64,000 nt of DNA from Candidatus Desulfopertinax cowenii (GTDB lineage Bacteria; Bacillota; Desulfotomaculia; Desulfotomaculales; Desulforudaceae): assembly GCA_001899445.1 (NCBI GenBank), contig MPOA01000003.1, positions 124,001 through 188,000 of the forward strand. The letters are read 5' to 3'. The notes under the pieces were generated by a model, which saw only the letters and a program-made list of their open reading frames with translations, did not search any database and was not told the origin of the DNA. The position numbers and the translations under genes were made by a program. The first letter of the stretch is position 1; each line of letters begins with the position of its first letter. Positions 47,112-64,000 of the stretch are shown here, piece by piece.

Positions 47112-47144
47112 AAGCCCACCAACCCTCACCGGGCAAAAGGTTCC

Positions 47145-47852: not shown

Positions 47853-48178
47853 TCAACCAAGCCCTCCCTGGAGCTGGAGCTCGCGCGCATAAACGCGCAT
47901 ACAATCGAGATGTGTTTGAAGTACGTTATAATTCTACCGGCCCGTTGCGTCCATTACAAGTCCGGCCGGGTCTTTATTGCGGCTACCCCTAAAAAACTGC
48001 GTTCAGGGAACAAAAGGGTATTGACACTAAATAGGGTGACATATAGAATCGGATTAAAAGATAATACCACATACCTATTATAACAATGCTTTTCCAAAGC
48101 TGTCAATTTTACCGTCTTCTTTGGTCTTTTCAGGACGTAAAACCGTTAAGCGGTACGGGCAAAAGAGGTGTTCTTCCC
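47853..48178. other. Divergent control region of the sulfolactate unit
   Basis: 326 bases, AT-richer in the second half. It holds the promoter at 48021-48049. The pentamer TGACA occurs twice (48022, 48036), flanking the spacer. No FadR-type TGGTnnnACCA dyad is obvious. No gene is supported. Confidence 0.5.
48021..48049 (+). promoter_or_regulatory. Promoter of the comC-suyAB-tct operon
   Basis: Consensus TTGACA (48021-48026), 17 bp, TAGAAT (48044-48049), about 130 bases before the dehydrogenase start. Confidence 0.7.
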
Positions 48179-49237
48179 GTGGGACTTACGGTATCAGCCG
48201 CCGACTTGCATAAATTCTGCACTGACCTGCTTATTGGTGCCGGTGTTCCCTCTGCAGACGCCGGAACAGTAGCCGCCGTACTGGTGGACACCAGTCTTGA
48301 AGGGATTGACACGCACGGCGTCAGCCGCCTGCCCGCTTACTTGAGGTGCCTGCAAAAAGGACGTATCAAGGCTGCCCCGGAGATCAGGGTGATCCGCTCC
48401 GCTCCGGCCGTGGCCGTCGTGGACGGTGACAACGGTCTTGGCCAGTTGGTTGCCGTACAGGCGATGGAAAAAGCGATTGAACTGGCTGGCGAGTCGGGGG
48501 TGGGAGTGGTAGCCGTAAGGCGCAGCAATCATTTCGGGGCCGCGTCGTACTACTGCAAGATGGCGGCCGCTCGCGGGATGATCGGCTTGGCCTTCACCAA
48601 TTCCGCGCCCGGCATCCCGCCGTGGGGCGGCCGGAAACCCTATTTCGGCACCAACCCGATTTCATTTGCTTTCCCCGCTGTGGACGGGCCGATTGTGGTG
48701 GACATGTCGTCGAGCAGCGCGGCCCGGGGCAATATCATTCTGGCCGCCGGGGAAGGACGGTCTATTCCGGAGGGTTGGGCGATTGACGCCGACGGACGGC
48801 CTACCACTGACCCCCGGAAGGCGTTGGAAGGGGCGATGCTCCCGGTGGGCGGGCCGAAAGGTTACGCTTTAGCCCTGGCCGTAGAAATCCTGTGCGGGGT
48901 TGTCAGCGGTGCCGCTTACGGCCCGCGCGTCGGCTGGATGTACGACGAAGGCTTGCAGCCGACCGACGTGGGCCACTTTTTCACCGCTATTGATATTGCG
49001 CCCTTCATGTCTATGCCGGAATATCTTTCCCGGATTGGCGGGATGAAAACCGAAATAAAAGCAGTCCCGCTGGTGGAAGGGGCCGACCGCATTCTCCTGC
49101 CGGGCGAGCGCAGGCGAATGACGGCCGACCGGCGCAGGCAGGAGGGCATCCCCGTCCCGCCGTCCCTTATGAACGAGCTGAACGATTTGGCGGTTCGGCT
49201 CAACGTGGCGCAGTTCGGGGAAAAGGCAACCGTTTGA
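48179..49237 (+). CDS. Ldh2/MdhC-family 2-hydroxyacid dehydrogenase (ComC-like, putative sulfolactate dehydrogenase)
   Basis: A 352-residue NAD(P)-dependent dehydrogenase of the malate/L-sulfolactate family. GTG 48179 lies 8 bases after AAAGAGGTG; an ORF from 48086 includes leader sequence. Signatures: SLEGIDTHGVSRLPAYL, VGVVAVRRSNHFGAASYY, YFGTNPISFAFP and GGPKGYALALAVEIL. ComC oxidises (R)-sulfolactate to sulfopyruvate or the reverse. Position directly before suyAB supports sulfolactate, but malate or lactate cannot be excluded from sequence. Confidence 0.85.
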   Translation: MGLTVSAADLHKFCTDLLIGAGVPSADAGTVAAVLVDTSLEGIDTHGVSRLPAYLRCLQKGRIKAAPEIRVIRSAPAVAVVDGDNGLGQLVAVQAMEKAIELAGESGVGVVAVRRSNHFGAASYYCKMAAARGMIGLAFTNSAPGIPPWGGRKPYFGTNPISFAFPAVDGPIVVDMSSSSAARGNIILAAGEGRSIPEGWAIDADGRPTTDPRKALEGAMLPVGGPKGYALALAVEILCGVVSGAAYGPRVGWMYDEGLQPTDVGHFFTAIDIAPFMSMPEYLSRIGGMKTEIKAVPLVEGADRILLPGERRRMTADRRRQEGIPVPPSLMNELNDLAVRLNVAQFGEKATV

Positions 49238-49345
49238 GTCTGTACCGAAGGCAACAATACGGGGGGTGATAGCGTCAACAGTGGGTTGAGTGGTACTGGA
49301 AACTTCAGGGCTTGGAGGTCCCGGTTCATGGAAGGGGAGAGAACA

Positions 49346-49633
49346 GTGGCGAATTCCGCGAAATTCTGCGTGCACCACAAGAACGACACGGTCGGCGTAG
49401 CAGTAAGTGAAATCCTGGCCGGTGAAACCGTGGAAGGCTGGGTGATGGACAGTAGCGATACGCTTAAAATCACCGCCAGGGCCAACATACCCCTGGGACA
49501 CAAGATTGCCCTGGCCGATTTTGCCAAGGGAGACCAAGTCATCAAGTACAACGAACCAATCGGTTTCGCCGTGAGTGAGATCAAGATCGGCGAACACGTA
49601 CACATCCATAATTTGAGAAGTGCAAGGTGGTAA
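49346..49633 (+). CDS. suyA: (2R)-sulfolactate sulfo-lyase, small subunit SuyA
   Basis: A 95-residue SAF-domain protein. GTG 49346 follows AAGGGGAGA; frames starting further upstream lack a site. The sequence pattern ([20 protein letters not shown], then EHVHIHNL) is shared by SuyA and the N-terminal domain of altronate/D-galactarate dehydratases. The large subunit starts 5 bases later. SuyAB splits (R)-sulfolactate into pyruvate and sulfite in the cytoplasm. Altronate dehydratase is the alternative, but the partner protein matches SuyB better. Confidence 0.85.
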
Positions 49634-49638
49634 GAGAA

Positions 49639-50796
49639 GTGAAAATTCCGCGGTTTATGGGCTACCGACGTGGAAACGGCAAGGTGGGTGTCCGCAATCA
49701 CGTAGTGATCCTCCCCCTGGACGATCTCTCCAATGCCGCTTGCGAAGCGGTGGCCAACAACATCAAGGGATGTCTCGCCCTGCCGCACCATTACGGCAGG
49801 CTGCAATTCGGCGAGGACCTGGAGCTGTTCTTCCGGACGCTCATCGGGACCGGAAGCAACCCTAACGTCGCTGCCTGCGTGGTGATCGGCATTGAACCCG
49901 AATGGACCAACATTGTTGTCGAGGGGATCGCCAAGACCGGGAAACCCGTGGCCGACTTCCACATCGAAAGGCACGGCATCCTGAAGACGGTTGAAGCGGC
50001 TTCGCGAAAGGCCAGGGAGTATGTCCTGTACAGCTCCGAACTGCAGAGGGAGCCGTGCACCGTGGACGAACTGACGGTGTCAATAAAATGCGGTGAGTCC
50101 GATACCACCTCCGGTCTCGCGGCCAACCCCGCCGTGGGGAAAGTGGTGGACAGGCTGGTGAGCTTGAATGCCACGGTGATGTTCGGCGAAACTTCGGAGG
50201 TCACCGGTGCCGAGCTGCTGCTCAAGGACCGGGCCGCCACTCCCGAAGTCGGTGAGGCGTTCCACAAGATGTGGAGCAGTTACAACGATTTTATTCTCGG
50301 TCAGGGCGTTGACCTAATCGGGTCTCAGCCCACGAAGGGCAACATCGCTGGAGGACTGACCACCATCGAGGAAAAGGCGCTGGGCAACATTCAGAAAATC
50401 GGAACCAGCAGGTACGTGGGCGTGCTTGAGCCCGCGGAAGCACCCACCGGCAAGGGGTTGTGGTTTATGGACACCTCGTCGGCAGCCGCGGAAGCGGTGA
50501 CTCTGTGGGCGGCTGCCGGGGCGGTGATCCACCTTTTCCCCACCGGACAGGGCAACATCGTCGGCAACCCCATTGTTCCGGTGATCAAGCTGACCGCCAA
50601 CCCCGCAACCGCCAGCACCATGTCCGAACACATTGATGTCGACCTATCGGGTATGCTGCGCCGGGAAATCGATCTTGAAACTGCCGGGGACATGCTGATG
50701 GAGATGCTGCTGCGGGTTGCCAACGGCCGTTTTACAAGCGCCGAGGTCCTGGGTCAAAGGGAGTTTGTGATCACCAAGCTTTACCGCAGCGCGTAA
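49639..50796 (+). CDS. suyB: (2R)-sulfolactate sulfo-lyase, large subunit SuyB
   Basis: A 385-residue UxaA-family protein starting at GTG 49639, with AAGGTGG 8 bases upstream. Family motifs: [89 protein letters not shown] and [18 protein letters not shown]. These match SuyB as I remember it much more closely than altronate dehydratase. With SuyA it carries out a C-S lyase reaction giving pyruvate and sulfite. The sulfite can go to DsrAB in a sulfate reducer. Confidence 0.88.
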
Positions 50797-50897
50797 ACCG
50801 TCTGTCTTGTCAATACTTTTCGCCGCGTTTGCGGGACAAGTTTTGTGGCTTCAAAAGCCAGAATATTAAGAATGTTATTTAAGGGAGGGTGTTTAGA

Positions 50898-51884
50898 ATG
50901 AGAAAAGCGTTCGGGATCCTGGCGGTTGCGGTGTTTGTCCTTACCTTGGCTGTCGGCTGCGGGCAGCAGGGCCAGGAGTCAACGGCGCCCAAAGTAGACT
51001 ATCCTACCAAACCAATCACCTACATGATTCCGTTTAACCCGGGCGGCCAGTCCGACCTGGAAGCGCGCCGCCAGCAACCGTTGCTGGAAGAATTCCTCGG
51101 CCAGAAAGTCATCATCACCTATAAGGCGGGCGGCGGTGGGGCCGTAGGCTGGTCTGAACTGGTGAACAAGAAACCTGACGGTTACTTCATCAGCGGGATC
51201 AACATCCCCCATATCATCCTACAGCCACTGTTCCGGGAGGACGCTGGCTACAAGACCGAGCAGATCAAGCCGGTAGCCATCTTCCAGGCCACGCCGATCG
51301 GTCTTGCCGTGTCGAAGGACAGCCCCTATGACAGCCTGGAGGAGTTCATCGCCGCCGGCAAAGAAAAACCCGGCAGCATCACCATCGGTGGTTCAGGTAC
51401 CTACTCCGGGCACCACCTGGCCACGCTCCAGCTCGAAAAACTGAGCGGCGCGAAATTCGAGTACGTGCCCTTCACAGGGGCCGCCCCGCAGTTGCAGGCC
51501 TTCCTGGGCGGCCACGTGGAGGCAATATTCGGTAACTCCAACGACCTGGTGCAGCACCAGGACAAGATGAAGATCCTGGCGATCGGTTCCCAGGAACGCT
51601 TCACGGCTCTGCCAGACGTGCCGACCTTCATCGAACTCGGTTACGACATGACGGCCAGTATCGACCGCGGCGTCGGTGTACCCCCGGGCACCGATGACGA
51701 AATCGTAAAGATCCTGGAAGAGGCCTTCATGCGGATCGCCAATAACGAGGCTGTCCAGGAACAGATGGTCGCGGAAGGCTTTGAGCCCAGGGCAATGAAC
51801 GCGGCCGAGTCCCTGGAATACATTCAGGCCAAGACCGTTGAATACACCGCCGTCATGGAAGAACTGCGGGCCGCCGGACAATAA
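50898..51884 (+). CDS. TctC-type solute-binding lipoprotein
   Basis: A 328-residue protein starting at ATG 50898 with GGGAGGGTG upstream. The lipoprotein signal ends in TLAVGC with the lipid Cys at about residue 21. The mature part is a TctC/BUG fold: YPTKPITYMIPFNPGGQSDL, KAGGGGAVGWSELVNKKPDG, GGSGTYSGHHLATLQL. It captures a carboxylated solute outside the membrane for the TctAB permease that follows. In other bacteria tripartite tricarboxylate-type carriers sit with suyAB and are assigned to sulfolactate uptake; the same is inferred here. Confidence 0.88.
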   Translation: MRKAFGILAVAVFVLTLAVGCGQQGQESTAPKVDYPTKPITYMIPFNPGGQSDLEARRQQPLLEEFLGQKVIITYKAGGGGAVGWSELVNKKPDGYFISGINIPHIILQPLFREDAGYKTEQIKPVAIFQATPIGLAVSKDSPYDSLEEFIAAGKEKPGSITIGGSGTYSGHHLATLQLEKLSGAKFEYVPFTGAAPQLQAFLGGHVEAIFGNSNDLVQHQDKMKILAIGSQERFTALPDVPTFIELGYDMTASIDRGVGVPPGTDDEIVKILEEAFMRIANNEAVQEQMVAEGFEPRAMNAAESLEYIQAKTVEYTAVMEELRAAGQ

Positions 51885-51907
51885 GCAATAATGTGCCGGC
51901 CCCAGCC

Positions 51908-51939
51908 GGGCTTTCCGGGCCGCCCGCCCCGGAAAGCCC
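51908..51939 (+). other. Intercistronic stem-loop between tctC and tctA
   Basis: GGGCTTTCCGGG (51908-51919) pairs perfectly with CCCGGAAAGCCC (51928-51939), 8-base loop, no T-run. It sits 23 bases after the binding-protein stop. Such hairpins often protect the 3' end of the binding-protein message so that more of it is made than of the permease. Confidence 0.7.
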
Positions 51940-51976
51940 GGGGCGGGCGGCGATTATTCAAGAAGGGGCGACGGCC

Positions 51977-53500
51977 ATGAGCGAACATCTAATGGTCGCC
52001 TTGGGGAATGTTTTTGATCCGGTCAACTTCCTTTTCTTGGCTGTGGGAGTGGCCGCAGGAATTATCGTGGGTGCCCTTCCGGGACTGACCGCCACTATGG
52101 CCCTGGCGCTGCTGGTTCCCTTTACCTTCACGATGGAGCCCGGCATGGCGCTGATGGTACTGGGCGGAGTGTACGTAGGCGCGATTTACGGCGGGTGCAT
52201 CGCGGCGATCCTGATCAACACGCCGGGCACGCCGTCCGCCATTGCCACTACTTTTGACGGTTATCCCCTGACCAAAAAAGGAAAGGCCGAACACGCCTTG
52301 GTAACTGCGGCATTCAGTTCCGGAATAGGCGGCATATTCGGCGCCATCGTCTTGTTGTTGTTGACACCGCTCCTGGCGGAAGTGGCCCTCAAATTCGGGC
52401 CGCCCGAGTATTTCTGGCTGGCGGTCTTCGGCCTGACCATCATCGCTACCCTGTCTACCGGTTCGATGCTGAAGGGGCTGATGGGTGGGGCTTTCGGAGT
52501 ATTGCTGAGCACCATCGGCATCGCCCCGATTGGCGGCGACATGCGTTTCACTTTCGGGTTTCACCAACTGCAAGCCGGTGTGGAGTTGATCGTGGCCCTG
52601 ATTGGCTTTTTCTGTATCCCGGAAGTCCTGCTCATGGTGGAAAGGAAGTTCAACCGGTACGGTAGCGTTACGTACAAGCCCCAAAAAGGCGTGGCGAAGT
52701 CGGTGATCCTGGAACTGCTCAGGAAACCGGTGCTGCTCCTGCGCTCTTCGGTCATCGGTTGTTTTGTAGGCATCGTGCCCGGGGCCGGCGGCAATATCGC
52801 CGCCCTGGTTTCCTATAACGAGGCGGTACGCTTTGCGAAAAACAAGAGTAAATTCGGCACGGGCACCATCGACGGCGTGGCCGCGGCGGAAGCAGCCAAC
52901 AATTCCGAAGTGGGCGGGTCACTGGTGCCGCTGCTCTCTCTTGGGATTCCCGGGGCCGCGCCAGCGGCAGTAATCCTGGGCGCCTTGATGTTGCAGGGCC
53001 TGCGGCCAGGGCCGGAGCTGTTTTCCGTCTTCGGTGGCATTACCTACACGTTTCTGATCTCTCTTATTTTTGCCAATGTTGTCATGTTTGTGCTGGGTTT
53101 TTACGGCTCCCGACACATCGCCCGGCTGATCAACCTGTCGCCCAACCTGCTGGCGCCGATGATCGTGTTCCTCACGGTGATCGGATCCTTCGCGATTCGA
53201 AACAATATGCTCGATGTGAGCATCATGGTTTTCTTCGGATTGGTAGGTTATTTAACTAAAAAGATGGGCTTTCACCCCGGACCCATTTGCCTGGGATTGA
53301 TCCTCGGACCTATATTGGAGAACGGACTGGTGCAGTCTATGCTCCTGGGCAAGGCGACGGGCAGCATGTTCCACGTATTTTTCACCAGGCCGATTTCGAT
53401 GGTGTTGATCGTGCTCAGCCTAGTGTCGGTAACCCTGCCAGCCATTGCCAGCCTGCGGGCCTGGAACCAGGAACGTAAGGGAGGTGTCTCCACTGCTTAA
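51977..53500 (+). CDS. TctA-type large permease subunit
   Basis: A 507-residue membrane protein starting at ATG 51977 after AAGGGGCG; the longer frame from 51893 reads through the stem-loop. About 12 helices and the TctA signatures GALPGLTATMALALLVPFTF, YGGCIAAILINTPGTPSAIA, GIVPGAGGNIAALVSYN and LGIPGAAPAAVILGALM. It is the main transmembrane subunit of the tripartite uptake system, driven by an ion gradient. Confidence 0.93.
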   Translation: MSEHLMVALGNVFDPVNFLFLAVGVAAGIIVGALPGLTATMALALLVPFTFTMEPGMALMVLGGVYVGAIYGGCIAAILINTPGTPSAIATTFDGYPLTKKGKAEHALVTAAFSSGIGGIFGAIVLLLLTPLLAEVALKFGPPEYFWLAVFGLTIIATLSTGSMLKGLMGGAFGVLLSTIGIAPIGGDMRFTFGFHQLQAGVELIVALIGFFCIPEVLLMVERKFNRYGSVTYKPQKGVAKSVILELLRKPVLLLRSSVIGCFVGIVPGAGGNIAALVSYNEAVRFAKNKSKFGTGTIDGVAAAEAANNSEVGGSLVPLLSLGIPGAAPAAVILGALMLQGLRPGPELFSVFGGITYTFLISLIFANVVMFVLGFYGSRHIARLINLSPNLLAPMIVFLTVIGSFAIRNNMLDVSIMVFFGLVGYLTKKMGFHPGPICLGLILGPILENGLVQSMLLGKATGSMFHVFFTRPISMVLIVLSLVSVTLPAIASLRAWNQERKGGVSTA

Positions 53501-53939
53501 TAGCACGTTCCTTTCCGCGCTGGTGTTTTTGTTCGTGGCTGTCGGAGTCTGGTACATGAGTAGTTCCTACTCCGAAATGGGGCGGCTCGTACCACAAGTA
53601 GCCGCCGCCGCCCTGGCCGTTTTCAGCGTCATCCAACTGGTGGTCGCGGTAGTACAAAGAAAAGAGGAAAGGCCCTTTGCTGGGGTTGTCGTCAAGCGCT
53701 TATTGGTACTGGCAGCCGGCACTGTCGCCTATATAGTCCTGATACTATACCTCGGCTTCCTTTTCGCCAGCTTTCTTTTCCTGATGTTTTTCTTCTGGTT
53801 CCTCAGCCTTGGTCAGGAAGAGCGGCCCGGCGTACTGCGGATGTTGCTGCTCGCCGTGGGGATCAGCCTCGGATTTTTTCTTCTGTTCAACAACGTATTC
53901 CTGGTACCCTTGCCTCAAGGTTTATGGTTTGGGGGTTAA
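53484..53939 (+). CDS. TctB-type small permease subunit
   Basis: About 150 residues with four hydrophobic helices (about 8-26, 40-60, 75-115, 125-145), the TctB plan. It overlaps the tctA stop. The start is unclear: GTG 53484 lacks a well-spaced site, whereas CTG 53493 is 6 bases after GGGAGGTG. Last gene of the operon; no terminator is evident just after it. Confidence 0.8.
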   Translation: MSPLLNSTFLSALVFLFVAVGVWYMSSSYSEMGRLVPQVAAAALAVFSVIQLVVAVVQRKEERPFAGVVVKRLLVLAAGTVAYIVLILYLGFLFASFLFLMFFFWFLSLGQEERPGVLRMLLLAVGISLGFFLLFNNVFLVPLPQGLWFGG

Positions 53940-54269
53940 GCCTTTTCTTAATATCTCCTTGCTATTCGACAAAATACAGCAAAAGATGTCTTTATTCGCG
54001 GAAGGAGCCCGCGTGCTGGGCGCGGAAAATACAGGTGTCGCCCAGATATTGCCGAAACAGGAAACCAGCTTGCCTTTTTCCAGCTAACATGTCAAGCCAC
54101 CGCCACCAGTTGTATTCTAATGCGCTTGCAAACCTGCCGGGCACTCTGGAATCGCCCTAGGAAGTAGATAGTAATTGTTTACTCCCGCCATTTAGGAAGA
54201 AGTGGTCTGTTAGCGCGCTAAGCGGGTAAGTAACAATATGGGGCATAAAAACGACGGAGGTTTGCGGTC
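53940..54269. other. Intergenic region before the CRISPR-Cas locus
   Basis: 330 bases. No gene, CRISPR repeat unit or clear terminator is seen. No convincing promoter for cas6 either. Confidence 0.45.
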
Positions 54270-55037
54270 GTGCAACTGACACTGGTTTTGGGGGCCGCCG
54301 GACCGGTTAGCCTGTCCGTACACTACGCCGGCCTGGTGCAGGGGCTGCTTTACCGGGTGATGGAAAACCCGGCGCTGAAGAGCTACCTGCACGAGCAGGG
54401 TTTCGCCTACGAGAACAGGCGCTTTAAGCTTTTCACCTTCTCCCGGCTGATGAGCGGGGTGGTGCGTTACGACCGCAACACGGGGAACCTCCTCCTGAAG
54501 CCCCCACTCTACCTGGTTATTTGCTCCCCGGTTTCCTTCATCCTGCAGGAGATCGGCACCGGCCTTTTGCGGCGGGGGTGGCTGCGCCTGGGCCCGGCCC
54601 GCCTGGAGGTGCGGGAGATGTATATCGCCGCGCTGCGGGTGGCCCAAAGTACCGTTCGGGTGCGCATGCTCTCCCCCCTGGTCGTCTACAGCACCCTGTT
54701 AACCGCAAGCGGCCGCAAATTCACCTATTATTACTCGCCGTTCGAGCCGCGCTTTTCCGAACTGGTGCGCGAAAACCTGGCTAAAAAACATGCTCTTATC
54801 CACGGCCGTCCGGCACTCGCGGACGGCTTTGCCATCCGGCCGGTGGGCGTTACCGAGAAAGACCACAAGATCACCCGCTACAAAGATACCATCATCAAGG
54901 GGTGGATGGGGGAGTACGAACTTGCCGGTGATCCGGATCTGCTGCAGGTCGCCCTGGACGCCGGGCTGGGCAGCAAGAACTCCCAGGGCCACGGCTGTTG
55001 TACGCTCGTGCAGCGGGGAGGAAAAGATCCGTTTTAA
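54270..55037 (+). CDS. cas6: CRISPR pre-crRNA endoribonuclease Cas6
   Basis: A 255-residue RAMP protein. The N-terminal ferredoxin-like fold includes GLLYRVM; the C-terminal Gly-rich loop GLGSKNSQGHGCCTLV is the Cas6 hallmark. Cas6 cuts the repeat in the pre-crRNA to release individual crRNAs. GTG 54270 follows GGAGGTTTGCGG. It is the first gene of the type III-B locus, although the repeats it would cut are not within the window. Confidence 0.92.
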   Translation: MQLTLVLGAAGPVSLSVHYAGLVQGLLYRVMENPALKSYLHEQGFAYENRRFKLFTFSRLMSGVVRYDRNTGNLLLKPPLYLVICSPVSFILQEIGTGLLRRGWLRLGPARLEVREMYIAALRVAQSTVRVRMLSPLVVYSTLLTASGRKFTYYYSPFEPRFSELVRENLAKKHALIHGRPALADGFAIRPVGVTEKDHKITRYKDTIIKGWMGEYELAGDPDLLQVALDAGLGSKNSQGHGCCTLVQRGGKDPF

Positions 55038-55082
55038 CTAACGGGCGGGCAAACGGGCTGATGAGCGAACAAGGGTGTAAGT

Positions 55083-55976
55083 ATGGAGCGGATGACCAAC
55101 AAGCGGTGCGGTGCGGAGATTCTGGTGGCCACCTTGGGCGTGGAGCCCCAGGTGGTGACCATCACCCTGGACCGGCTTTTGGCCGCCGGCCGGACCATCG
55201 GCGAGGTAGCCGTGGTGCACACCCTGGACGCCGGCGTCCGGGAGGCGCTGGCGGTGGTCGCGGCCGAGTTCGGGAGGGGCTTTTATCCCGGCGTGCGGCT
55301 GCGGGCCGTTCCCGTGACCGGGGCCCGCGGGGCGGTCACGGATTTCCACGGGGAAGAGTGCCTGCGGGCGCTGCTGGGCACCCTGTACGGGGAAGTGCGC
55401 CGGGCGCGCCAACAAGGCGTGACGGTGCACCTTGGCGTCTCCGGCGGCCGGAAGGTGATGGGCATTATCGGGATGGTGGTGGCACAACTGCTTTTTGGGC
55501 CGGAGGACCGCGTCTGGCACCTGGTCACCGCTGGCTGGCACCCGGGGGTCCGGCGTCGGCTGCACCTGACGCCGGCCGACCGAGCCTGGCTGGTGCCGGT
55601 GCCGGTCCTGCGCTGGGCCGAGGCTGGCACCCTGATGCGGACGGTGGCCGAACTAGACGACCCGGCGGAGGTGGTGGCCTGGTACGAGCGGCTCACCCGC
55701 GCCGCCGCGGCCCGGCGCCGCGCCGAGTTCGTCCGCCGCTGGCTCACGCCGGCCGAGCGGAAGGTGGCCCGCCTGGCCTGCCGCGGCCTGGACAACGCGG
55801 CCATCGCCGCGGCGCTCGGCAAACGGGAGCAAACGGTGGCCAACCAGCTCCGGGAGGTGTACGCCAAACTGCGGGAGTGGCTGGGCTACCCGGAGGCGAA
55901 CGTGGGCCGCAGCGCGCTCATCGCCGAATTCGCGCCTTATTTTGCCGGCGCGGGGGAGGAGAGAGCGGGAAGGTGA
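55083..55976 (+). CDS. CARF-like domain fused to a LuxR-type HTH: candidate cyclic-oligoadenylate-responsive regulator
   Basis: A 297-residue protein. Residues about 12-170 form a Rossmann-like CARF/Csx14-like (NE0113) domain: ILVATLGVEPQVVTITLDRL, VAVVHT, and the ligand-loop motif VHLGVSGGRKVMGIIGMV at about 115-132. Residues about 221-285 are a LuxR/GerE helix-turn-helix (LTPAERKVARLACRGLDNAA, IAAALGKREQTVANQL). No nuclease motif is visible. CARF domains bind cyclic oligoadenylates made by Cas10, so the fusion suggests a signal-controlled transcription factor. Some NE0113 relatives may be ring nucleases; that alternative stands. Confidence 0.8.
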   Translation: MERMTNKRCGAEILVATLGVEPQVVTITLDRLLAAGRTIGEVAVVHTLDAGVREALAVVAAEFGRGFYPGVRLRAVPVTGARGAVTDFHGEECLRALLGTLYGEVRRARQQGVTVHLGVSGGRKVMGIIGMVVAQLLFGPEDRVWHLVTAGWHPGVRRRLHLTPADRAWLVPVPVLRWAEAGTLMRTVAELDDPAEVVAWYERLTRAAAARRRAEFVRRWLTPAERKVARLACRGLDNAAIAAALGKREQTVANQLREVYAKLREWLGYPEANVGRSALIAEFAPYFAGAGEERAGR

Positions 55977-55983
55977 GAAAGCC

Positions 55984-56271
55984 TTGATTCTGTTGAATTT
56001 TTCGCATCCGTTTACCGCCGTGCAGTTGCGGCAATTGGAGGCGCTTACCGGGAAGAAGATCGAGCGGGTCATCGAGATCAACGCCCAAATCGATCCGCAG
56101 CAGCGGATCGCCCCGCAGGTGCCGCACAGACCTAAGGTCCAGCACCTCAACGCCGCGCCGTTCCCGGGTGGGTCATTCACGACGGTGCCCCCACCGGCGA
56201 ACGAATGGAAATGCGCGTCTGTTTTTGAGGGAGGAGGTTGGAGAAAAAGCTTATGGGCCAGGATTACCTGA
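55984..56271 (+). pseudogene. Truncated Csx15-like CRISPR accessory gene
   Basis: From TTG 55984, 8 bases after the CARF-HTH stop, the frame reads LLNFSHPFTAVQLRQLEALT and GKKIERVIEINAQID, the typical Csx15 N-terminus. After about 40 residues the resemblance ends; the following 50 residues are Pro-rich and unlike the family, and the frame overlaps the cmr2 start. The Csx15 C-terminal half is missing, so the gene is probably a remnant. Confidence 0.6.
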
Positions 56272-58076
56272 TTATCTTTCATATCGGGCCGGTTCAGGAC
56301 TTCATCGCTACGGCGCGACGCAGCCGCGACCTGTGGTTCGGCTCGTGGTTGCTGAGCGAGTTGGCAAAGAAGGCGGCGCTGGAAGTTGTGCATCAGAACG
56401 GCGGCAGGCCTGAGAGTTTAGTCTTTCCGGCGCCAAAGGATCCTGCCGAGTTGCAACCGGGGACACCCTTCAATGTGCCCAACCGCATTGTGGCGGTCGT
56501 GAAGCGGACTCCGGACGGGTTGGTCGAATTGGCGGAGGAGGTCTGGCGAGCTGTTTTCGCGCACCTCAACAAACTCTGCGACGGCGCCTTCGCTGAAATC
56601 AAGGGCGAGTTTGACCGCACCGCGGCGTGGCGCCAGGTCGAGGATTTCCTCGAGTTCTTCTGGGCGGCCCATCCCTTGGGCGACAACTACGAAAAGACGC
56701 GCGCCCTGGTCGAGGCTTTGCTGAACACCCGGAAGGCAACGCACGACTTTGCGCCCGTTTGCTGGGAGAGTGAGGCGCCCAAGTGTTCGCTCGACGGGTG
56801 CCGGGAGTCGGTCATTCCCGAACGCGCTTACCGTCAATCGACCAAAAAAGAAAACGAACTTCACACCAAGTACGGTGTAAGGCCCGGCGAGCGACTGTGC
56901 GGGGTATGTCTGCTGAAGCGGCACGGCCAGCGGGGAAAAGAAGAGCGTTTTTTCAGTACCTCTCACGTCGCTGCCCTTCCTTTGCTGGAAAGGCTCACTG
57001 AAAAACATCGCCCGCTCGTTGAGGCGTACATTACAAAGCTGAAGGAACTCGATATTATGCGGGACGCCCTTGGCACGGTTGGGGAATCTCATCCGGTGTT
57101 CGAGCGGCACGACGGTTATTTGTTGTTTTCGGAGCGCCTTCATGAATACCTCCCCGAAAACCGGCTGCCTCAAGCCAAGGAGACGCTACGCCACTTTCTG
57201 AAGCAAGCCTTTGGTGGGAAAGAGCCGCTTCCTTATTATGTTCTTTTGCTGGCAGACGGCGATCATCTGGGCCGGGTGATTGATGCGCAGAAGACGCCTG
57301 GCGCCCACCGCGCGCTTTCCCGGGCGCAGAGCATTTTCGCGCAAGAGGCGCGGGATATCGTTCGGGAGCACCGCGGTTCACTGATCTATTCCGGCGGTGA
57401 TGATGTCCTGGCGCTAGTGCCTCTGCACAAGGTGCTGGCCTGTGCCCGTTGCTTGGCCGAAACCTTCCGCCGGCGACTGGCAAACTTCAAGGCGGACGAC
57501 GGCCGCACTTCGCCGACGCTGTCCGCCGGCATTGTAATCGCCCACCATCTTGATCCTTTAGCCGATGCTTTGGAACTGGCGCGGGCGACCGAGAAGGCGG
57601 CGAAATCGGTATCGGGCAAGAACGCGCTGGCGGTAACGCTCAGCAAACGAAGCGGGGCGGCGCGGACCGTTAAAGGTGCCTGGGGCACACTAGACCGGTG
57701 GTTGGAATGGTTCACTGATCTACACCGGGCCGAGGCTATACCTGATGCTGCCGCCTATGAATTGCGAGACCTTGCCAGGATGCTTGCGGTACCGGATGGT
57801 GTCCCAGACGAGGGGTTGAAGGCCAGACTTCAGGAAGCAGCGCGCTTGGAGGCTATCCGCATCTTGCGGCGCAAGAAAGCTAAACGGGGTGCAGAGCCAA
57901 TTGCGAAGCCAGTATTAGAGGAGCTGGAAAAGCGACTGGCAGAAGGTGAGTTTTCGTTTGAAAAGCTTAACCAGCTGGCAGACGAGCTCGTTATTGCGCA
58001 TGAATTCGCTGTGGCAATGGACCTTGCTGGTGAGCGCATGTTGGCAACATCAAACGGGGAGGTGAGGCCAAAGTGA
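56253..58076 (+). CDS. cmr2: Cas10 / Cmr2, type III-B, without HD domain
   Basis: A protein of 607 residues from ATG 56253 (TTG 56238 also possible). It starts directly with IIFHIGPVQDFIATARRSRD, the first cyclase-like segment, so the usual N-terminal HD nuclease is absent. A zinc site is suggested by CSLDGC and CGVC. The palm domain has LLADGDHLG and an intact GGDD at residues 381-384 (SLIYSGGDDVLALV), the site that makes cyclic oligoadenylates. Expected activity: signalling by cOA but no DNA cleavage. Its stop overlaps cmr3 by 4 bases. Confidence 0.93.
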   Translation: MGQDYLIIFHIGPVQDFIATARRSRDLWFGSWLLSELAKKAALEVVHQNGGRPESLVFPAPKDPAELQPGTPFNVPNRIVAVVKRTPDGLVELAEEVWRAVFAHLNKLCDGAFAEIKGEFDRTAAWRQVEDFLEFFWAAHPLGDNYEKTRALVEALLNTRKATHDFAPVCWESEAPKCSLDGCRESVIPERAYRQSTKKENELHTKYGVRPGERLCGVCLLKRHGQRGKEERFFSTSHVAALPLLERLTEKHRPLVEAYITKLKELDIMRDALGTVGESHPVFERHDGYLLFSERLHEYLPENRLPQAKETLRHFLKQAFGGKEPLPYYVLLLADGDHLGRVIDAQKTPGAHRALSRAQSIFAQEARDIVREHRGSLIYSGGDDVLALVPLHKVLACARCLAETFRRRLANFKADDGRTSPTLSAGIVIAHHLDPLADALELARATEKAAKSVSGKNALAVTLSKRSGAARTVKGAWGTLDRWLEWFTDLHRAEAIPDAAAYELRDLARMLAVPDGVPDEGLKARLQEAARLEAIRILRRKKAKRGAEPIAKPVLEELEKRLAEGEFSFEKLNQLADELVIAHEFAVAMDLAGERMLATSNGEVRPK

Positions 58077-59287
58077 GCGTCTGGATCATTGAACCCCGCG
58101 ATCCTTTGATTGTCAGGGATGGTCGTCCTTTCGGGCCGTTTCCTGGTGCGCGGGCGTTTTCCCTGAAGTTCCCGTTTCCGTCTACTGTGGCAGGGGGTGT
58201 CCGCACACGCGTCGGTCTGTACAAGTACGGCCGGTTTGGTCCTGATGTTATACAAGAAATTAAGCGCATTCGGGTGCGGGGGCCGTTGCTGGCGGAGTTG
58301 GAGACAACCGGCGAGGACGTTGCTGAGTGGCTGGTCCCGGCACCGGCCGATGCCCTGTTGCTCGATTTGGAGCCGGCTGATCCGGGCAGGGCGATGCTTA
58401 AACGGCTGGTGCCGCTGGAGCTGCCTTCAGGGGCAAAGACCGATCTGAGTACTATAGTCCTGGAGGAAGTAGCGCTGGTCGGGCTGCCGCAACGTGATCC
58501 CCGCAAGCCCTGCAAGGCAGCACCGGGCTTTTGGCGGTGGACTTTCTTTGAAAAATGGCTGGAGATGCCCGTTGATCAGGAGGTAACCTTTGCCGCCATG
58601 GGGCACGATGGCCCGGTTCCAGAAGTACGGATGCACGTGGGCATAAGACCCGAGACGCAAACGGCCGACGAAGAACGCGGGGCGCTGTTCCAGACCCGCG
58701 GCCTGGAGTTTGCCCGCTTGGCCGAACCCGGAAAGCTGAAATCCGCCCGCCGGCTGGGCCTGATCGTGGAGGCGGACACCACCGGCTTAAAGCCGGGCAT
58801 TGCGCCCCTCGGCGGAGAGCGGCGCCTGGTCTACTGGCGGTCGAGCCGCCAGGCGTTTCCCACCCTTTCCCCAGACTTGAAACAGAAGATCCTTGACCAG
58901 CGGCACTGCCGCCTTATCCTGCTGACCCCAGCCTGCTTCCTAGACGGCTGGAAACCGAGGTGGCTGCTTGACCGGCGGGAGGGCGTAAAACCAACCCTGC
59001 GGGCGGCGGCGGTTAAACGGCCGGCGGTGGTATCCGGCTGGAGTTTCGAGCATGGCAAACCCAAACCCACCCGCCGCCTGGCGCCGGCCGGCACCGTCTA
59101 CTTCCTGCGGCTGGAGGGCAAAGAGGCGGCCATAGCGCGGTGGCTCGAAGCCGTCTGGATGCAGGCCGTCAGCGACGGAGAGCAGGACCGCCGCGACGGT
59201 TTCGGCTTGGCCGTGCTGGGGGCCTGGGACGGTAAGTTACGCCCGATGGAGGTGGAAAAAGAGCATGCGCAAGCTGCCACGAGATGA
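58073..59287 (+). CDS. cmr3: Type III-B effector subunit Cmr3
   Basis: A 404-residue RAMP protein with the Cmr3 N-terminus (IEPRDPLIVRDGRPFG, FPFPSTVAGGVRTRVG) and a C-terminal Gly-rich segment. Cmr3 pairs with Cmr2 and grips the 5' handle of the crRNA. GTG 58073 overlaps the cmr2 stop, so the two are translationally coupled. Confidence 0.92.
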   Translation: MSVWIIEPRDPLIVRDGRPFGPFPGARAFSLKFPFPSTVAGGVRTRVGLYKYGRFGPDVIQEIKRIRVRGPLLAELETTGEDVAEWLVPAPADALLLDLEPADPGRAMLKRLVPLELPSGAKTDLSTIVLEEVALVGLPQRDPRKPCKAAPGFWRWTFFEKWLEMPVDQEVTFAAMGHDGPVPEVRMHVGIRPETQTADEERGALFQTRGLEFARLAEPGKLKSARRLGLIVEADTTGLKPGIAPLGGERRLVYWRSSRQAFPTLSPDLKQKILDQRHCRLILLTPACFLDGWKPRWLLDRREGVKPTLRAAAVKRPAVVSGWSFEHGKPKPTRRLAPAGTVYFLRLEGKEAAIARWLEAVWMQAVSDGEQDRRDGFGLAVLGAWDGKLRPMEVEKEHAQAATR

Positions 59288-59363
59288 AAGCAGGGCGGAA
59301 CTCGTCCCGCCGGCGGTCGAACCCCGCCTTGACCGGCGGTTGGCGGGTACCAAGGAGGTTTCA

Positions 59364-60560
59364 TTGATAACTCAAGTCCGCCACTACGAACTGATTACGC
59401 CGCTTTTCGGCGGCGGGGTGGACCCGGGCGAAGCCGACCCGTTAACGATTATCCGGGGCCCGGCAATCCGGGGTCAGTTGCGCTTCTGGTGGCGGGCTTG
59501 CCGGGGCGGGCAGTTCAACGGTGACTTGCGGATGATGAAAGAGGCGGAAGATGAACTTTGGGGAGCGGCCAGCACGGAAAAGGAACCACGCCCGTCCCTG
59601 GTGCAGATCAGACTGGAAATCGCCAACGGTGGACAGCACGTCCAGCCTTTTGAGAGTCGGACCCGACCTTCCCCGAATTGGAGGGACTTAGCTTACGCTA
59701 CCTTTCCTTTGCAAGATAAAAACCCTCCCGGCGAAGTAAGAACGGGAGTAAAATTTAAGCTCACCCTCACCTATCCCCAAAAGCGGAGGGCAGAAGTTGA
59801 AGCCGCCCTGTGGGCCTGGGAGACCTTCGGCGGTGTTGGTGCCCGTACCCGGCGCGGCTTCGGGGCATTGAAACTGCTTCGAATCGATGACAAGCCGGTA
59901 CCGTTACCCGGGGCTGCTGACGTAGTAACGCAGATCCGCGAAGGGCTGCAACGGCACGTGACTGCCGGGGAGTGGCCCGCCCAAGTACCCCATCTTGCGC
60001 CCGCGCTCACAATGAAGGTGACGCAAGGCCATCCGAACCCAAAGGCCGCCTGGACGTACTTGATCAAGCAGCTGAAAGCGTTCCGCCAGGCCCGTAATTC
60101 CGGCGTTTCGCCCCGGCAACCCGGGCGCAGCCGGTGGCCGGAACCGGACGCCATCCGAAAACTTACGGGTAACCGGGCCCCAAAGCACCGCCAGGCTCTG
60201 CTAAATATTGACAAGTTTCCGCGGGCGGCGTTCGGTTTGCCGATTGTGTTTCATTTCAAAGACGCTGGGGACCCGCAAGATACTATCCTGCAAGGAAAAG
60301 CTTGCGACCGCTTGGCCAGCCCACTTATTCTCCGCCCCCTGGCCTGCGCCGATAGCGCGGTTGGCTTGGCAGTGATTCTGGAAGGAACAGGTCTGATGGC
60401 ACTGCCCGGAGGCCTAGCACTCAAAGAAGCAAAAGGGGTAACGGGCAAGAGTTGGCCGGTGGAGGCTGGGCTCAGCAAAGTCGAAGCCAAGAAGATCGAG
60501 CCGCTCAACGGCAACCCCGCCCTTTTGGAAGCCTTTCTGGAATTTTTAAATTCTTCTTAA
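59364..60560 (+). CDS. cmr1: Type III-B effector subunit Cmr1
   Basis: A 398-residue RAMP protein. TTG 59364 is chosen because AAGGAGGTT lies just upstream and the product then begins at ITQVRHYELITPLFGGG, the normal Cmr1 start; a frame from 59265 would overlap cmr3. RGQLRFWWRA and the FGGVGARTRRGFGAL Gly-rich motif are present. Cmr1 caps the 3' end of the crRNA filament in type III-B complexes and marks this as the Cmr subtype. Confidence 0.92.
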   Translation: MITQVRHYELITPLFGGGVDPGEADPLTIIRGPAIRGQLRFWWRACRGGQFNGDLRMMKEAEDELWGAASTEKEPRPSLVQIRLEIANGGQHVQPFESRTRPSPNWRDLAYATFPLQDKNPPGEVRTGVKFKLTLTYPQKRRAEVEAALWAWETFGGVGARTRRGFGALKLLRIDDKPVPLPGAADVVTQIREGLQRHVTAGEWPAQVPHLAPALTMKVTQGHPNPKAAWTYLIKQLKAFRQARNSGVSPRQPGRSRWPEPDAIRKLTGNRAPKHRQALLNIDKFPRAAFGLPIVFHFKDAGDPQDTILQGKACDRLASPLILRPLACADSAVGLAVILEGTGLMALPGGLALKEAKGVTGKSWPVEAGLSKVEAKKIEPLNGNPALLEAFLEFLNSS

Positions 60561-60576: not shown

Positions 60577-61452
60577 ATGAACGCCCGCTTGCTTTTCATT
60601 CACGCCTTCTCCCCCCTGCACGCCGGGACCGGACAGGCGGTGGGGGCGATCGACCTGCCGGTCGCCCGGGAGAAGGCCACCGGTCTGCCTTACCTTCCCG
60701 GTTCCTCCCTTAAAGGGGTGTTGCGGGAGGCCTGCCCCGATGAGGAATTGCGCAGATGCGTCTTCGGCCCGGAACCCAGCCACGCTAGCGACTACGCGGG
60801 CTCGGTGCAAATCTCAGACCAGCGGCTGTTGGTGCTGCCGGTCCGAAGCCTCAAAGGCACGTTCGCCTGGGTGACCGCCCCGTTTATTCTGCGCCGTTTC
60901 TTGCGGGACGCCGGCTGTGCCGCCGTTTCCGGCCTGCCAACGGCGGTGCCTTCTCCCGCGGGGGTGCGTTCCTGCCTGGTTCCGGGCAACGCGGAGGTCA
61001 TCGTGCACAACGGCCGGGTTATCCTGGAGGATCTCGACCTTGACGGCCAAGACGACGCCGGGACGCAGGCTTGGGCGGCTTGGATCGGCGGCCAGGTTTT
61101 CGCCGACGACCCGGATTGGCAGGCCGTTTTTACGGCGCGTTTCTGTGTCGTGCACGATGACGTCCTTGGTTTTCTATTGGAGACCGCTACCGAAATCACG
61201 GCGCGCATAAGGTTGCAGGAAGAGGCGAAAACGGTCCAAGAGGGCGGGCTCTGGTATGAAGAAGCACTTCCCGCGGAGACCGTACTCTCGGGGTTGATTG
61301 TGGCGACGCCCGTCATGGCGGAGGCGGATGAGGTATTCCGCACGCTGGCCGACCTGGTGGCTGGGCCGCTGCAGTTGGGTGGCAAGGCGACGGTCGGGCG
61401 AGGGCTTTGCCGGCTGCGGCTGACGGGGGGGGTTAGCCGTGCGGACACGTAG
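60577..61452 (+). CDS. cmr4: Type III-B backbone subunit and target RNase Cmr4
   Basis: A 291-residue Cas7-like protein with ATG 60577 after AAGGAGGTTTGAG. The catalytic loop GAIDLPVAREKATGLPYLPG keeps the conserved Asp used to cut target RNA at 6-base steps, and the Gly-rich GGKATVGRGLCRLRL motif closes the fold. It should form the helical backbone along the crRNA. The next gene starts within its last 14 bases. Confidence 0.93.
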   Translation: MNARLLFIHAFSPLHAGTGQAVGAIDLPVAREKATGLPYLPGSSLKGVLREACPDEELRRCVFGPEPSHASDYAGSVQISDQRLLVLPVRSLKGTFAWVTAPFILRRFLRDAGCAAVSGLPTAVPSPAGVRSCLVPGNAEVIVHNGRVILEDLDLDGQDDAGTQAWAAWIGGQVFADDPDWQAVFTARFCVVHDDVLGFLLETATEITARIRLQEEAKTVQEGGLWYEEALPAETVLSGLIVATPVMAEADEVFRTLADLVAGPLQLGGKATVGRGLCRLRLTGGVSRADT

Positions 61453-61801
61453 CCAGGAATATGCGGCACAAGTTTTTGCGCAGGTGGCAAAGGTGGGCGA
61501 AGATGAGCGCCGGAAGTACGGCTCCCTGGCCCACCGGCTGCCGGTGCTTGTGCGCACCGCCGGGTTGGCCCAGGCGCTAGCTTTCGTCGAGGCGCGGGGC
61601 AGCCAGGCGGGGGAGAAATTACTGGCGCACATCGCCGAAGTTGTTCAGGAAAAAGAACTGCTTAAGCGCAGCCGCGAGGCCGAACTTGAGGAATACATGG
61701 ATCTTACCCGTAAGGTGCTGGACGCCTTGGTCTGGTACAAACGGTTCGCCCAATCGGTACTGGGCGTGGAGGCGACCGCGGATAAGGGGGTGGACGGATG
61801 A
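61439..61801 (+). CDS. cmr5: Type III-B small subunit Cmr5
   Basis: A 120-residue, mostly helical protein (AAQVFAQVAKVGEDERRKYG, LPVLVRTAGLAQALAFVEAR) matching Cmr5, which lines the inner face of the complex. It overlaps cmr4 and cmr6 at both ends. Confidence 0.9.
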   Translation: MRTRSQEYAAQVFAQVAKVGEDERRKYGSLAHRLPVLVRTAGLAQALAFVEARGSQAGEKLLAHIAEVVQEKELLKRSREAELEEYMDLTRKVLDALVWYKRFAQSVLGVEATADKGVDG

Positions 61802-62766
61802 GCACGCGCCGGGCCTGCCTGACCAGCGTCGAAAAGACAGCGACAACCAACGCCGGCCTTTGGCTCGACCGGTTCATCCGCAACCAGGACCGGGAAGATA
61901 AGGGCAGCCGCCGCGATCTGGTCCGGGAGGCCGCAGAGATTCCGGGAGGAGAAACCTACGCCCGCTGGTTTGAGCGCTGGCGGCAGGTGCTGCGGGATTG
62001 CGGGGTCGAATGCCGGGAAGCCGAAGTTGCCGGGCGCATGGCCGTGGGGTTGGGCGCGGAGGGGGTACTGGAGACCGCGATTGCTTTGCACCGCACCTGC
62101 GGCGTGCCCTACATCCCCGGCAGCGCGCTGAAGGGGCTTGCCGCCGCCTTTGCCCGCCAGCATCTGGGCGAAGATTGGCAGCCGCACACCCCGGCCTACA
62201 AAATAGTCTTCGGGGATACCGCGGCCGCCGGATACGTCACTTTTTTTGACGCCCTGCCGCTGCCGGGCAAAAGGCTCTTATATCCTGATGTTCTTACGGT
62301 GCACCACCAAGAGTATTACAAGGGCACTGGTGCCCCGCCCGCTGATTGGGACAGTCCCAAGCCGGTCCCGTTTCTCGCGGCTACCGGTAAGTATTTAATT
62401 GCCTTGTCCGGCCCGGTGGAGTGGGTGCAAACGACTTTCGAGATTCTGTCCCACGCTCTTTGGCACCAGGGGATCGGCGCGAAAACGTCCAGTGGCTACG
62501 GGCGTTTGAAACTAGAAGCGAAGGCACCTGTTGATCCGCGAAAGGCACAGGTAGGTCAGCTGGTCGAACAAATCCGGGCTCTGAAACCTGCGGAGGTTGC
62601 GGGGCGGATCCACGCTTTTTACGAGCAGTGGCGCACGTTGGAGGGCGATCCCGGGTCCAAACGCCGCGTCGCGGAAGCCATCGTGGCCAAAGTCAAAGAA
62701 GCCGGGCGTGCGAAGCAGTCACGCAAGAGGGATTGGTACCAGGAGTTGCTTAAAAGCCTCCGGTAG
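61798..62766 (+). CDS. cmr6: Type III-B subunit Cmr6
   Basis: A 322-residue RAMP protein with the Cmr6 pattern (NAGLWLDRFIRNQDREDKG, YIPGSALKGLAAAFARQ, HQGIGAKTSSGYGRLKLE). Cmr6 sits at the 3' end of the backbone next to Cmr1. With it the full set Cmr1-Cmr6 is complete in one operon. Confidence 0.92.
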   Translation: MSTRRACLTSVEKTATTNAGLWLDRFIRNQDREDKGSRRDLVREAAEIPGGETYARWFERWRQVLRDCGVECREAEVAGRMAVGLGAEGVLETAIALHRTCGVPYIPGSALKGLAAAFARQHLGEDWQPHTPAYKIVFGDTAAAGYVTFFDALPLPGKRLLYPDVLTVHHQEYYKGTGAPPADWDSPKPVPFLAATGKYLIALSGPVEWVQTTFEILSHALWHQGIGAKTSSGYGRLKLEAKAPVDPRKAQVGQLVEQIRALKPAEVAGRIHAFYEQWRTLEGDPGSKRRVAEAIVAKVKEAGRAKQSRKRDWYQELLKSLR

Positions 62767-62883
62767 TTTTGGCGAAGCCGGGCCGATAACTTTTTAGCAA
62801 TTGGGCACTGCCCAGTCTTTGGCTGAAATGGTAGCAAATAAGAGGCGTGGCAGGCTGGAGTAATGAAGGAGGGAAATAAGCAC

Positions 62884-64000
62884 ATGGCCACCGTACTCGT
62901 GGTTTCGGTGGGCGGTTCCTGCGCCCCGGTGGTGAATGGCTGCCGGGAGTTTAAACCGGACTTCGTCTACTTCCTGTGCTCGGGGGGCAAATCGGCGAGC
63001 ACCGTGGTGGTGGACGGGGACGGGAATCCCTGCGGTGATCCCCGGACAGTTTCGTGTCCAGAATGCGGGAAGAGCATTCCTCTGGGTGACCCCAGAGGCC
63101 CTTCCATCACTCGCCAACTGGGGCTTAGTGCCGACCGGTACGAGAAGGTCTTGGTGGAAGACCCGGATGACCTGGAGGCGCTTTTCCGGGCGTTAGACGA
63201 GATCGACCGCCGCGTACGGAAGCGCTTTGCCGGGCAAAAAGTAGAGGTGATCGCCAACTATACCGGAGGGACCAAGACCATGTCGGTAGCGTTGGCCCTG
63301 ATGGCCGTGCTCCGCCGCTGGGATCTATCACTCAGCAAGGGGCCGCGCAAAGACCTCATCAAGGTGAAGAGCGGCGACATCCCGGTGCGAGTGGACCAGT
63401 CGCCCTTCGTCATCGACTATCACCTGGAGCGCATGCGCGAGCTTTTGAACCGCTACGATTACCGGGCGGCCGACGAGGTGCTGGGGGGGCTTATCCGGCG
63501 CAGCCCACAGACCGCCCGGGAGGAACTTTTGCGTTTGCGCCGCCTCTGCCGGGCCTTCAGTCTTTGGGATGCCTTCGACCATTCCGGCGCCTACGAAATT
63601 CTGGAGGGCAGCGGCGGTTCGTCACTTGAGCCCTACATCAAGGCGGCGGCCCGGCTTTCGCAGCCGGAAAAGTCCGGGGCCGCTTATGAGGCGGTGGTGG
63701 ATCTGCTTTACAACGCCGAGCGCCGGGCGGAGCAAGGGCGCTACGACGACGCGGTGGGGCGGCTTTACCGGGCCCTGGAACTTTTAGCCCAATTGCGGTT
63801 GCGGATGCCTTACGGCTTAGACACCGGCCGCATCGACGTCTCCGCCTTGCCGGAGGGCTTGCGGGCGAAATACGCCAGCCGGCAGGAGGGCGGCCGGCCG
63901 CTGCAATTGGCCCTCGTGCAGGCTTACCTGTTGTTGGACGATTTGGAAGACGGTCTGGGCCGGCTTTTCCGCCGGGAGGAAAAGCGGCTGTTAAACGCGC
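62884..64000 (+). CDS. CARF-domain protein, TIGR02710 (Csm6-clade) family, 3' partial
   Basis: ATG 62884 after GGAGGGAAATAAG; the frame is open to the window end (372 codons seen). The N-terminal CARF domain has VLVVSVGGSCAPVVNGCREF and the ligand motif VIANYTGGTKTMSVALALM at about residues 120-138. A CxxC pair (CPECG) sits in the first 60 residues. The later part is helical with AEQGRYDDAVGRLYRALELL, typical of TIGR02710 proteins. If a HEPN RNase site (Rx4-6H) exists it lies beyond the window. Likely the effector activated by the cOA made by Cmr2. Confidence 0.85.
   Translation, partial: MATVLVVSVGGSCAPVVNGCREFKPDFVYFLCSGGKSASTVVVDGDGNPCGDPRTVSCPECGKSIPLGDPRGPSITRQLGLSADRYEKVLVEDPDDLEALFRALDEIDRRVRKRFAGQKVEVIANYTGGTKTMSVALALMAVLRRWDLSLSKGPRKDLIKVKSGDIPVRVDQSPFVIDYHLERMRELLNRYDYRAADEVLGGLIRRSPQTAREELLRLRRLCRAFSLWDAFDHSGAYEILEGSGGSSLEPYIKAAARLSQPEKSGAAYEAVVDLLYNAERRAEQGRYDDAVGRLYRALELLAQLRLRMPYGLDTGRIDVSALPEGLRAKYASRQEGGRPLQLALVQAYLLLDDLEDGLGRLFRREEKRLLNA

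Follow-up and report, generated by a model that had tools for sequence, protein, structure and literature searches.

The window analysed here, a stretch of 64,000 nucleotides from Candidatus Desulfopertinax cowenii, carries on its forward strand a type III-B CRISPR locus with the gene order cas6-csx14-csx15-cas10/cmr2-cmr3-cmr1-cmr4-cmr5-cmr6, followed by a CARF-6H-HEPN RNase gene. The operon opens with cas6 (54270..55037), which was assigned by Pfam, NCBIfam and PADLOC, as were cmr3 (58073..59287), cmr1 (59265..60560), cmr4 (60577..61452), cmr5 (61439..61801) and cmr6 (61798..62766). Between cas6 and the latter lie csx14 (55083..55976), which encodes a CARF-LuxR protein of 297 residues and was identified by its open reading frame, Pfam, NCBIfam, PADLOC and an alignment of homologues, a remnant of csx15 (55984..56271; NF040560), and cas10/cmr2 (56238..58076; Pfam, NCBIfam and motif). 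Membership in type III-B is met by the presence of cmr1-6 together with a Cas10 with an intact cyclase motif (SGGDD, with GGDD at residues 386-389), confirming the original prediction of such a Cas10 two genes away from csx14; that prediction did not include the identity of the gene in between as a truncated csx15, the CARF-HEPN RNase gene at 62863, or the type I-B target described below. The RNase gene (Csm6/Csx1-like, 62863..64000) extends about 209 bp beyond the window end, and further on, on the same strand, are a type I-B operon and a CRISPR array with 48 repeats (L019:2219-14060; contig C3 188219 onward). On the 5' side of the locus (45834-53939), inspection by eye suggests genes for sugar-acid metabolism, a GntR-type regulator and a TctABC-like transporter, which appear ordinary and unrelated to the CRISPR locus.

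From sequence alone, the csx14 product had been described as a CARF-like N-terminal domain with an SGGRK loop, joined to a C-terminal LuxR/GerE domain and without a visible nuclease site, and all three points held. The CARF sensor domain (residues 12-205, 55116..55697 on the forward strand), delimited by Pfam Cas_NE0113, by mapping onto Sso2081 and by the predicted fold, contains motif I (G19-V20-E21, 55137-55145) and motif II (G121-G122-R123-K124, 55443-55454), and is followed by the LuxR/GerE-type HTH domain (residues 206-297, 55698..55973). In Pfam, residues 21-205 match Cas_NE0113 (PF09623), a CARF family, at 164.8 bits against a cut-off of 23, and residues 221-264 (55743-55874) match the GerE/LuxR HTH at 25.1 bits against 23.5. 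The top NCBIfam match is TIGR03642 (Csx14), with 85.1 bits for a curated cut-off of 90.35, which is passed by orthologues including that of the sister genome (92.5 bits), while the PADLOC CARF3 profile PDLC01851 matches with 393 bits and spans residues 12-288. The protein, though itself below the TIGR03642 cut-off, is placed in the family Csx14 (TIGR03642) or PADLOC CARF3 clade, with which it shares the CARF domain and its length over residues 12-288. No nuclease family in Pfam, NCBIfam or PADLOC matched any part of the protein, and a nuclease role for its C-terminal domain was rejected on these grounds. The Csa3 profile TIGR01884 did not match it either, and gave one weak match among 32 homologues; with an HTH of the LuxR type instead of a winged HTH, membership in Csa3 is not met.

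Among the checks suggested with the original prediction were a structure prediction and an HMM search for CARF/Csx14-LuxR fusions. In the AlphaFold2 model, computed without ligand, the N-terminal domain is Rossmann-like and the C-terminal domain helical, and Foldseek relates the whole model to the Crn1 ring nucleases and the CARF domain of Cad1. The isolated C-terminal domain retrieves almost only LuxR/NarL/GerE proteins, at a probability of about 1.0 and with E-values above 0.1, which are weak because the domain is short; the fold of the C-terminal 95 residues is itself confidently predicted (pLDDT 88). The HMM search found both domains (Cas_NE0113 and GerE) in 32/32 aligned homologues, a set made up of the query and 31 other proteins that are 44-87% identical to it, and in which T251, V252, N254 and Q255 of the recognition helix do not vary. 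Csx14 is hence a fusion of a CARF domain with a LuxR-type HTH, as shown by sequence and structure prediction.

The closest solved relatives of the CARF domain by sequence are the Crn1 ring nucleases Sso2081 and Sis0455 (E 1e-10), in agreement with the predicted fold. The roles of the cyclic tetraadenylate (cA4)-contacting residues of Sso2081 have been described, as has the requirement for Ser11, part of the motif I Gly-Thr-Ser, in cleavage (PMC10018336). Residues G9, D75, G104, R105 and K106 of Sso2081 correspond to G19, D87, G122, R123 and K124 of Csx14, all invariant in the 32 homologues, as is G121 of the SGGRK loop. Motif I, on the other hand, reads Gly-Val-Glu in place of Gly-Thr-Ser; its Val varies, and its Glu is invariant in 32/32. 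The protein therefore does not meet the Crn1 criterion of a Gly-Thr-Ser with catalytic Ser, and it scores 15.6 bits with the Crn1 model NF040581, for a cut-off of 125. As the cA4-contact residues are invariant and an equally invariant Glu occupies the position of the catalytic Ser11, we predict by the criterion of PMC10018336 that Csx14 binds cyclic oligoadenylate (cOA) without cleaving it, an inference from residues for which there are no ligand-binding or cleavage data. A 2025 survey lists Csx14 as a predicted ring nuclease and places it in Crn1 (PMC12409355); this is likely a mis-assignment.

A survey of 60 genomes, the majority from the same order, turned up true homologues of Csx14 in 11 (a twelfth listed genome had only an HTH match and was left out). 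In the GTDB contig set, 33 loci belong mostly to Bacillota, including Desulfofundulus, Pelotomaculum and Moorella; a few are from Anaerolineae and a single one is from Armatimonadota. Matches to the Csx14 profile occur in 28 of 398 genomes of the phylum, 12 of them above the TIGR03642 cut-off. Among these further matches in the phylum, every full-length, strong Csx14 carries the HTH; two longer, weakly related CARF proteins without it are of a different kind (e.g., that of L227, with TLGDSP). In one genome (G155, locus L228), csx14 is shortened to about 141 residues and the upstream element described below is still intact (31 bits), which suggests that the regulator was lost recently. The sister genome (L009/L029) starts with the same cas6-csx14-csx15 genes and continues with different type III effectors, namely long fused RAMP proteins and a short Cas10, so that between the two genomes the regulator module appears to have been kept while the effector module was swapped.

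The neighbour of csx14, Csx15, is a cA4 ring nuclease or sponge whose C-terminal His/Arg residues serve in cA4 binding (PMC13148439). Its gene lies within 250 bp of csx14 in 24/39 loci, and inside the fetched stretch in 31/39. In the window, the match to NF040560 (46 bits, cut-off 35) covers only profile positions 1-72 of 125, and the N-terminal part is retained while the conserved C-terminus, with the His/Arg region of full-length copies, is gone; the criterion for a full-length Csx15 is not met, and no second copy of csx15 was found elsewhere in this genome. In the sister genome, csx15 (L029:10900-11343) is frame-shifted near its start, possibly through an assembly error, and in most other csx14 loci it is intact. 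Decay may thus have occurred independently in these two genomes of the same genus. Csx15 is also seen in other contexts. One locus (L013:7831-8745, reverse strand) encodes a 304-residue protein with an N-terminal part that by eye looks like a Schlafen AlbA_2-type domain and a Csx15 C-terminal part (PADLOC, 202-300), and has a normal csx15 as well. In L047 (4106-7324) and L048 (4913-9494), a single operon, preceded by the DNA element described below, consists of csx15, a gene for a PAS-GGDEF protein and csx14; no cas10 was found in the fetched stretches of these two loci, and L048 encodes a second GGDEF protein downstream.

The element in question has the form TRGTA-N6-TACYA-N9-GTA, is followed at fixed spacing by a sigma70-like promoter, and in most loci precedes the csx14 operon. 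The pattern TRGTAN6TACY occurs in 25 of 35 regions upstream of this operon, whereas dinucleotide shuffles give 0.19 on average. When similar promoters were merged into 21 groups, the conserved columns were TRGTA, TACYA, the third half-site GTA at a fixed spacing and, after it, a CTNG box; a -10-like TAANNT lies at a fixed place in the 20 sites compared, which come from both promoter classes, 17 bp from a TTG-like hexamer at the CTNG box. Since the inverted repeat was first spotted by eye in these same upstream sequences, independent evidence comes from the leave-group-out scores, the controls without csx14, the second sites and the loci found later. Related promoters are not fully independent of each other. 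A leave-group-out weight matrix placed its top match before the operon in most csx14 loci, mostly at 14-48 bits, while the highest scores were 9.1 in 20 type III loci without csx14 and 12.1 in random 20-kb sequences. The element is present in 9/11 genomes with csx14 and in 0/20 type III loci without it (Fisher p 2.7e-6, relatedness ignored), and a strong site lies just upstream in 7 of 9 csx14 loci that were found later and not used in building the model. By comparison, then, a conserved element accompanies the presence of csx14, without there being DNA-binding data. It is missing from the loci of the most divergent homologues (G027, G056 and Chloroflexota), which lack the TRGTA/TACYA motif, and in csx14 loci where the start codon is near the site, the -10 cannot be distinguished from the Shine-Dalgarno sequence.

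In the window, the predicted operator before cas6 spans 54167..54211 on the forward strand, with the palindrome TAGTAATTGTTTACT at 54169-54183 and a degenerate third half-site. The match at 54169, 101 bp 5' of cas6, is the only one to TRGTAN6TACY in the window; a single match per 64 kb is unremarkable, as 28 of 100 shuffles have one, and it is the location that is remarkable. When this genome and its sister were left out of the training, a model of the palindrome core put the cas6 site first among 127,962 positions. With the 45-bp model, which includes the third half-site, it comes only fourth. Two regions had been named as candidates for DNA binding in the original prediction, and only one of them, 53940-54269, holds the site; none was found between cas6 and csx14 (55038-55082). 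An Rfam search for an RNA element in the leader gave no matches.

A second site lies at the junction of the type III and type I-B operons in all 8 genomes whose junction sequence was examined, and it was found with a matrix trained solely on sites before csx14 operons. The operon behind it is cas8-cas7-cas5-cas3-cas4-cas1-cas2. For the window genome this site is at contig C3 188221-188248, about 220 bp beyond the window end and right after the CARF-HEPN gene, and it is the sole match to the full pattern in the 1.78 Mb genome. Four other matches to the short palindrome in this genome lie in stretches whose best 45-bp scores are -8.7 to -18, and a wide regulon is not supported. Other loci carry the site before cas4-cas1-cas2 (L035, L046) or before csx15 where this is the first gene of the operon (L047, L048). 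Among 21 type I-B cas8 stretches from genomes without csx14, a weak version lies directly before cas8 in one (L184:286 in G058, a fragmented assembly), where csx14 may have been lost recently or may be on a missing contig; the highest score among these stretches, 13.5, seems due to chance. In this scoring, the stretches of G000, G013 and G027 did not include the junction and their low scores are no evidence, the former two being covered in the junction comparison.

These observations bear on the main proposal of the original prediction, that cOA controls transcription, possibly of the cas operon itself. It receives strong comparative support, because all 32 homologues retain the cOA-binding residues and lack the ring-nuclease motif, and an operator-like element precedes both operons; that Csx14 binds cOA and DNA, and in which direction it acts, is inferred. 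On balance we favour, with moderate confidence, Csx14 as a cOA-responsive one-component transcription factor that may couple type III detection to the type III, type I-B and spacer-acquisition genes. Phage RNA would activate Cas10 to synthesize cOA, most likely cA4, since it is cA4 that Csx15 acts on. Binding of the signal by the CARF dimer would reposition the HTH domains on the TRGTA/TACYA inverted repeat and the third half-site, from where Csx14 would bring RNA polymerase to a sigma70-type promoter whose -35 is weak, so that type III, type I-B and adaptation genes would be expressed more strongly; intact Csx15 would clear or sequester the signal. Activation is inferred because the element lies directly 5' of the weak -35, at fixed spacing to this box and to TAANNT, the two boxes being 17 bp apart. 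Against this scheme stand the poor third half-site of the cas6 site in the window and the lack of the motif in the most divergent homologues; moreover, Csa3 of S. solfataricus showed no direct effect of cOA on its binding to DNA (PMC8844856).

The most serious alternative, which we still consider unlikely, is that Csx14 represses the cas operons in uninfected cells through the same sites and is released by cOA. Inverted-repeat operators and autoregulation are also typical of repressors, and where the start codon is 60-80 bp from the site, an overlap with another promoter is possible; in both promoter classes, however, the element lies 5' of the -35-like box, itself 17 bp from TAANNT, and this is the usual position of an activator; LuxR/NarL-type HTH proteins are mostly activators. 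We regard as much less probable that Csx14 is a Crn1-type ring nuclease with a structural or autoinhibitory HTH, like that reported for the wHTH of Sis0811/Sso1393. Its nearest solved relatives are Crn1 enzymes, the 2025 survey counts it among them, and ring nucleases of the Sso1393 type do carry a wHTH (PMC10018336), but the replacement of the catalytic Ser by Glu in 32/32 homologues and the low NF040581 score speak against it, as do the dedicated ring nuclease or sponge, Csx15, that already adjoins csx14, and an HTH that retains its DNA-contacting residues and accompanies a conserved DNA element.

It is about as improbable that another regulator binds the element while Csx14 acts elsewhere. 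No data here show which protein binds it, and the genome in which csx14 was not detected (G058) keeps its weak version before the type I-B operon; yet the element follows csx14 across genomes (9/11 against 0/20), and the TAC inside its half-sites is the core of NarL/LuxR-type sites. Nor do we give much weight to the possibility that Csx14 regulates these operons in response to a ligand other than cOA. The related loci with csx14 and csx15 beside GGDEF proteins, and no cas10 in the fetched stretch, would fit it, but cas10 adjoins csx14 in nearly all other loci, the residues matching the cA4 contacts of Sso2081 are invariant, and Csx15 acts on cA4.

Regulation by Csx14 in response to cOA, the reading we prefer, can be compared with known systems. 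A 2014 paper on CARF domains predicted both Csa3 and the NE0113 proteins as transcription regulators (PMC4012209). Csa3, an archaeal CARF-wHTH transcription factor, likewise combines a CARF sensor with a DNA-binding domain and links type III signalling to type I and adaptation genes; it differs in its winged HTH of another fold, in its cA4-binding motif 1, and in being archaeal and encoded beside type I-A, whereas Csx14 has a LuxR HTH and is encoded inside the type III operon of bacteria. With Crn1 (Sso2081, Sis0455), the closest solved CARF proteins by sequence and predicted fold, Csx14 shares the cA4-contact residues but not the Gly-Thr-Ser cleavage motif, and it has the LuxR HTH in addition. 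CalpL/CalpT/CalpS also turn cA4 into a transcriptional response in bacteria; there, a sigma factor is released by the protease CalpL, while in Csx14 sensor and DNA binder are proposed to be one protein. We thus class Csx14 among the CARF-HTH regulators, as a protein that would work like Csa3 yet fails membership in both Csa3 and Crn1. In the papers searched, Csx14/CARF3 appears as a plain CARF protein or a predicted ring nuclease, without mention of the LuxR HTH, the loss of motif I or the operator, and we found no description of a CARF-LuxR protein or its operator; the search did not cover the 2020 CARF classification (10.1093/nar/gkaa635), which may mention an HTH. New here are the tripartite element before the csx14 operon and its second copy before the type I-B operon.

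A bolder reading, which we think could as easily fail as hold, is that Csx14 is a bacterial CARF-LuxR activator through which the detection of RNA by type III would induce the type III, type I-B and spacer-acquisition operons via a shared tripartite operator, with Csx15 as the signal clearer. If true, the seven loci in which Csx15 has been reported, oddly, together with 'Crn1' would hold Csx14-Csx15 pairs, which would explain the puzzle. How the type III alarm reaches other CRISPR systems is an open question in bacteria, and in archaea the best-studied CARF transcription factor is Csa3, whose dependence on cOA is unclear. The Csx14 family offers a defined sensor, a 45-bp DNA element and target operons in cultivated bacteria, among them Desulfofundulus and Pelotomaculum, and makes the connection directly testable.
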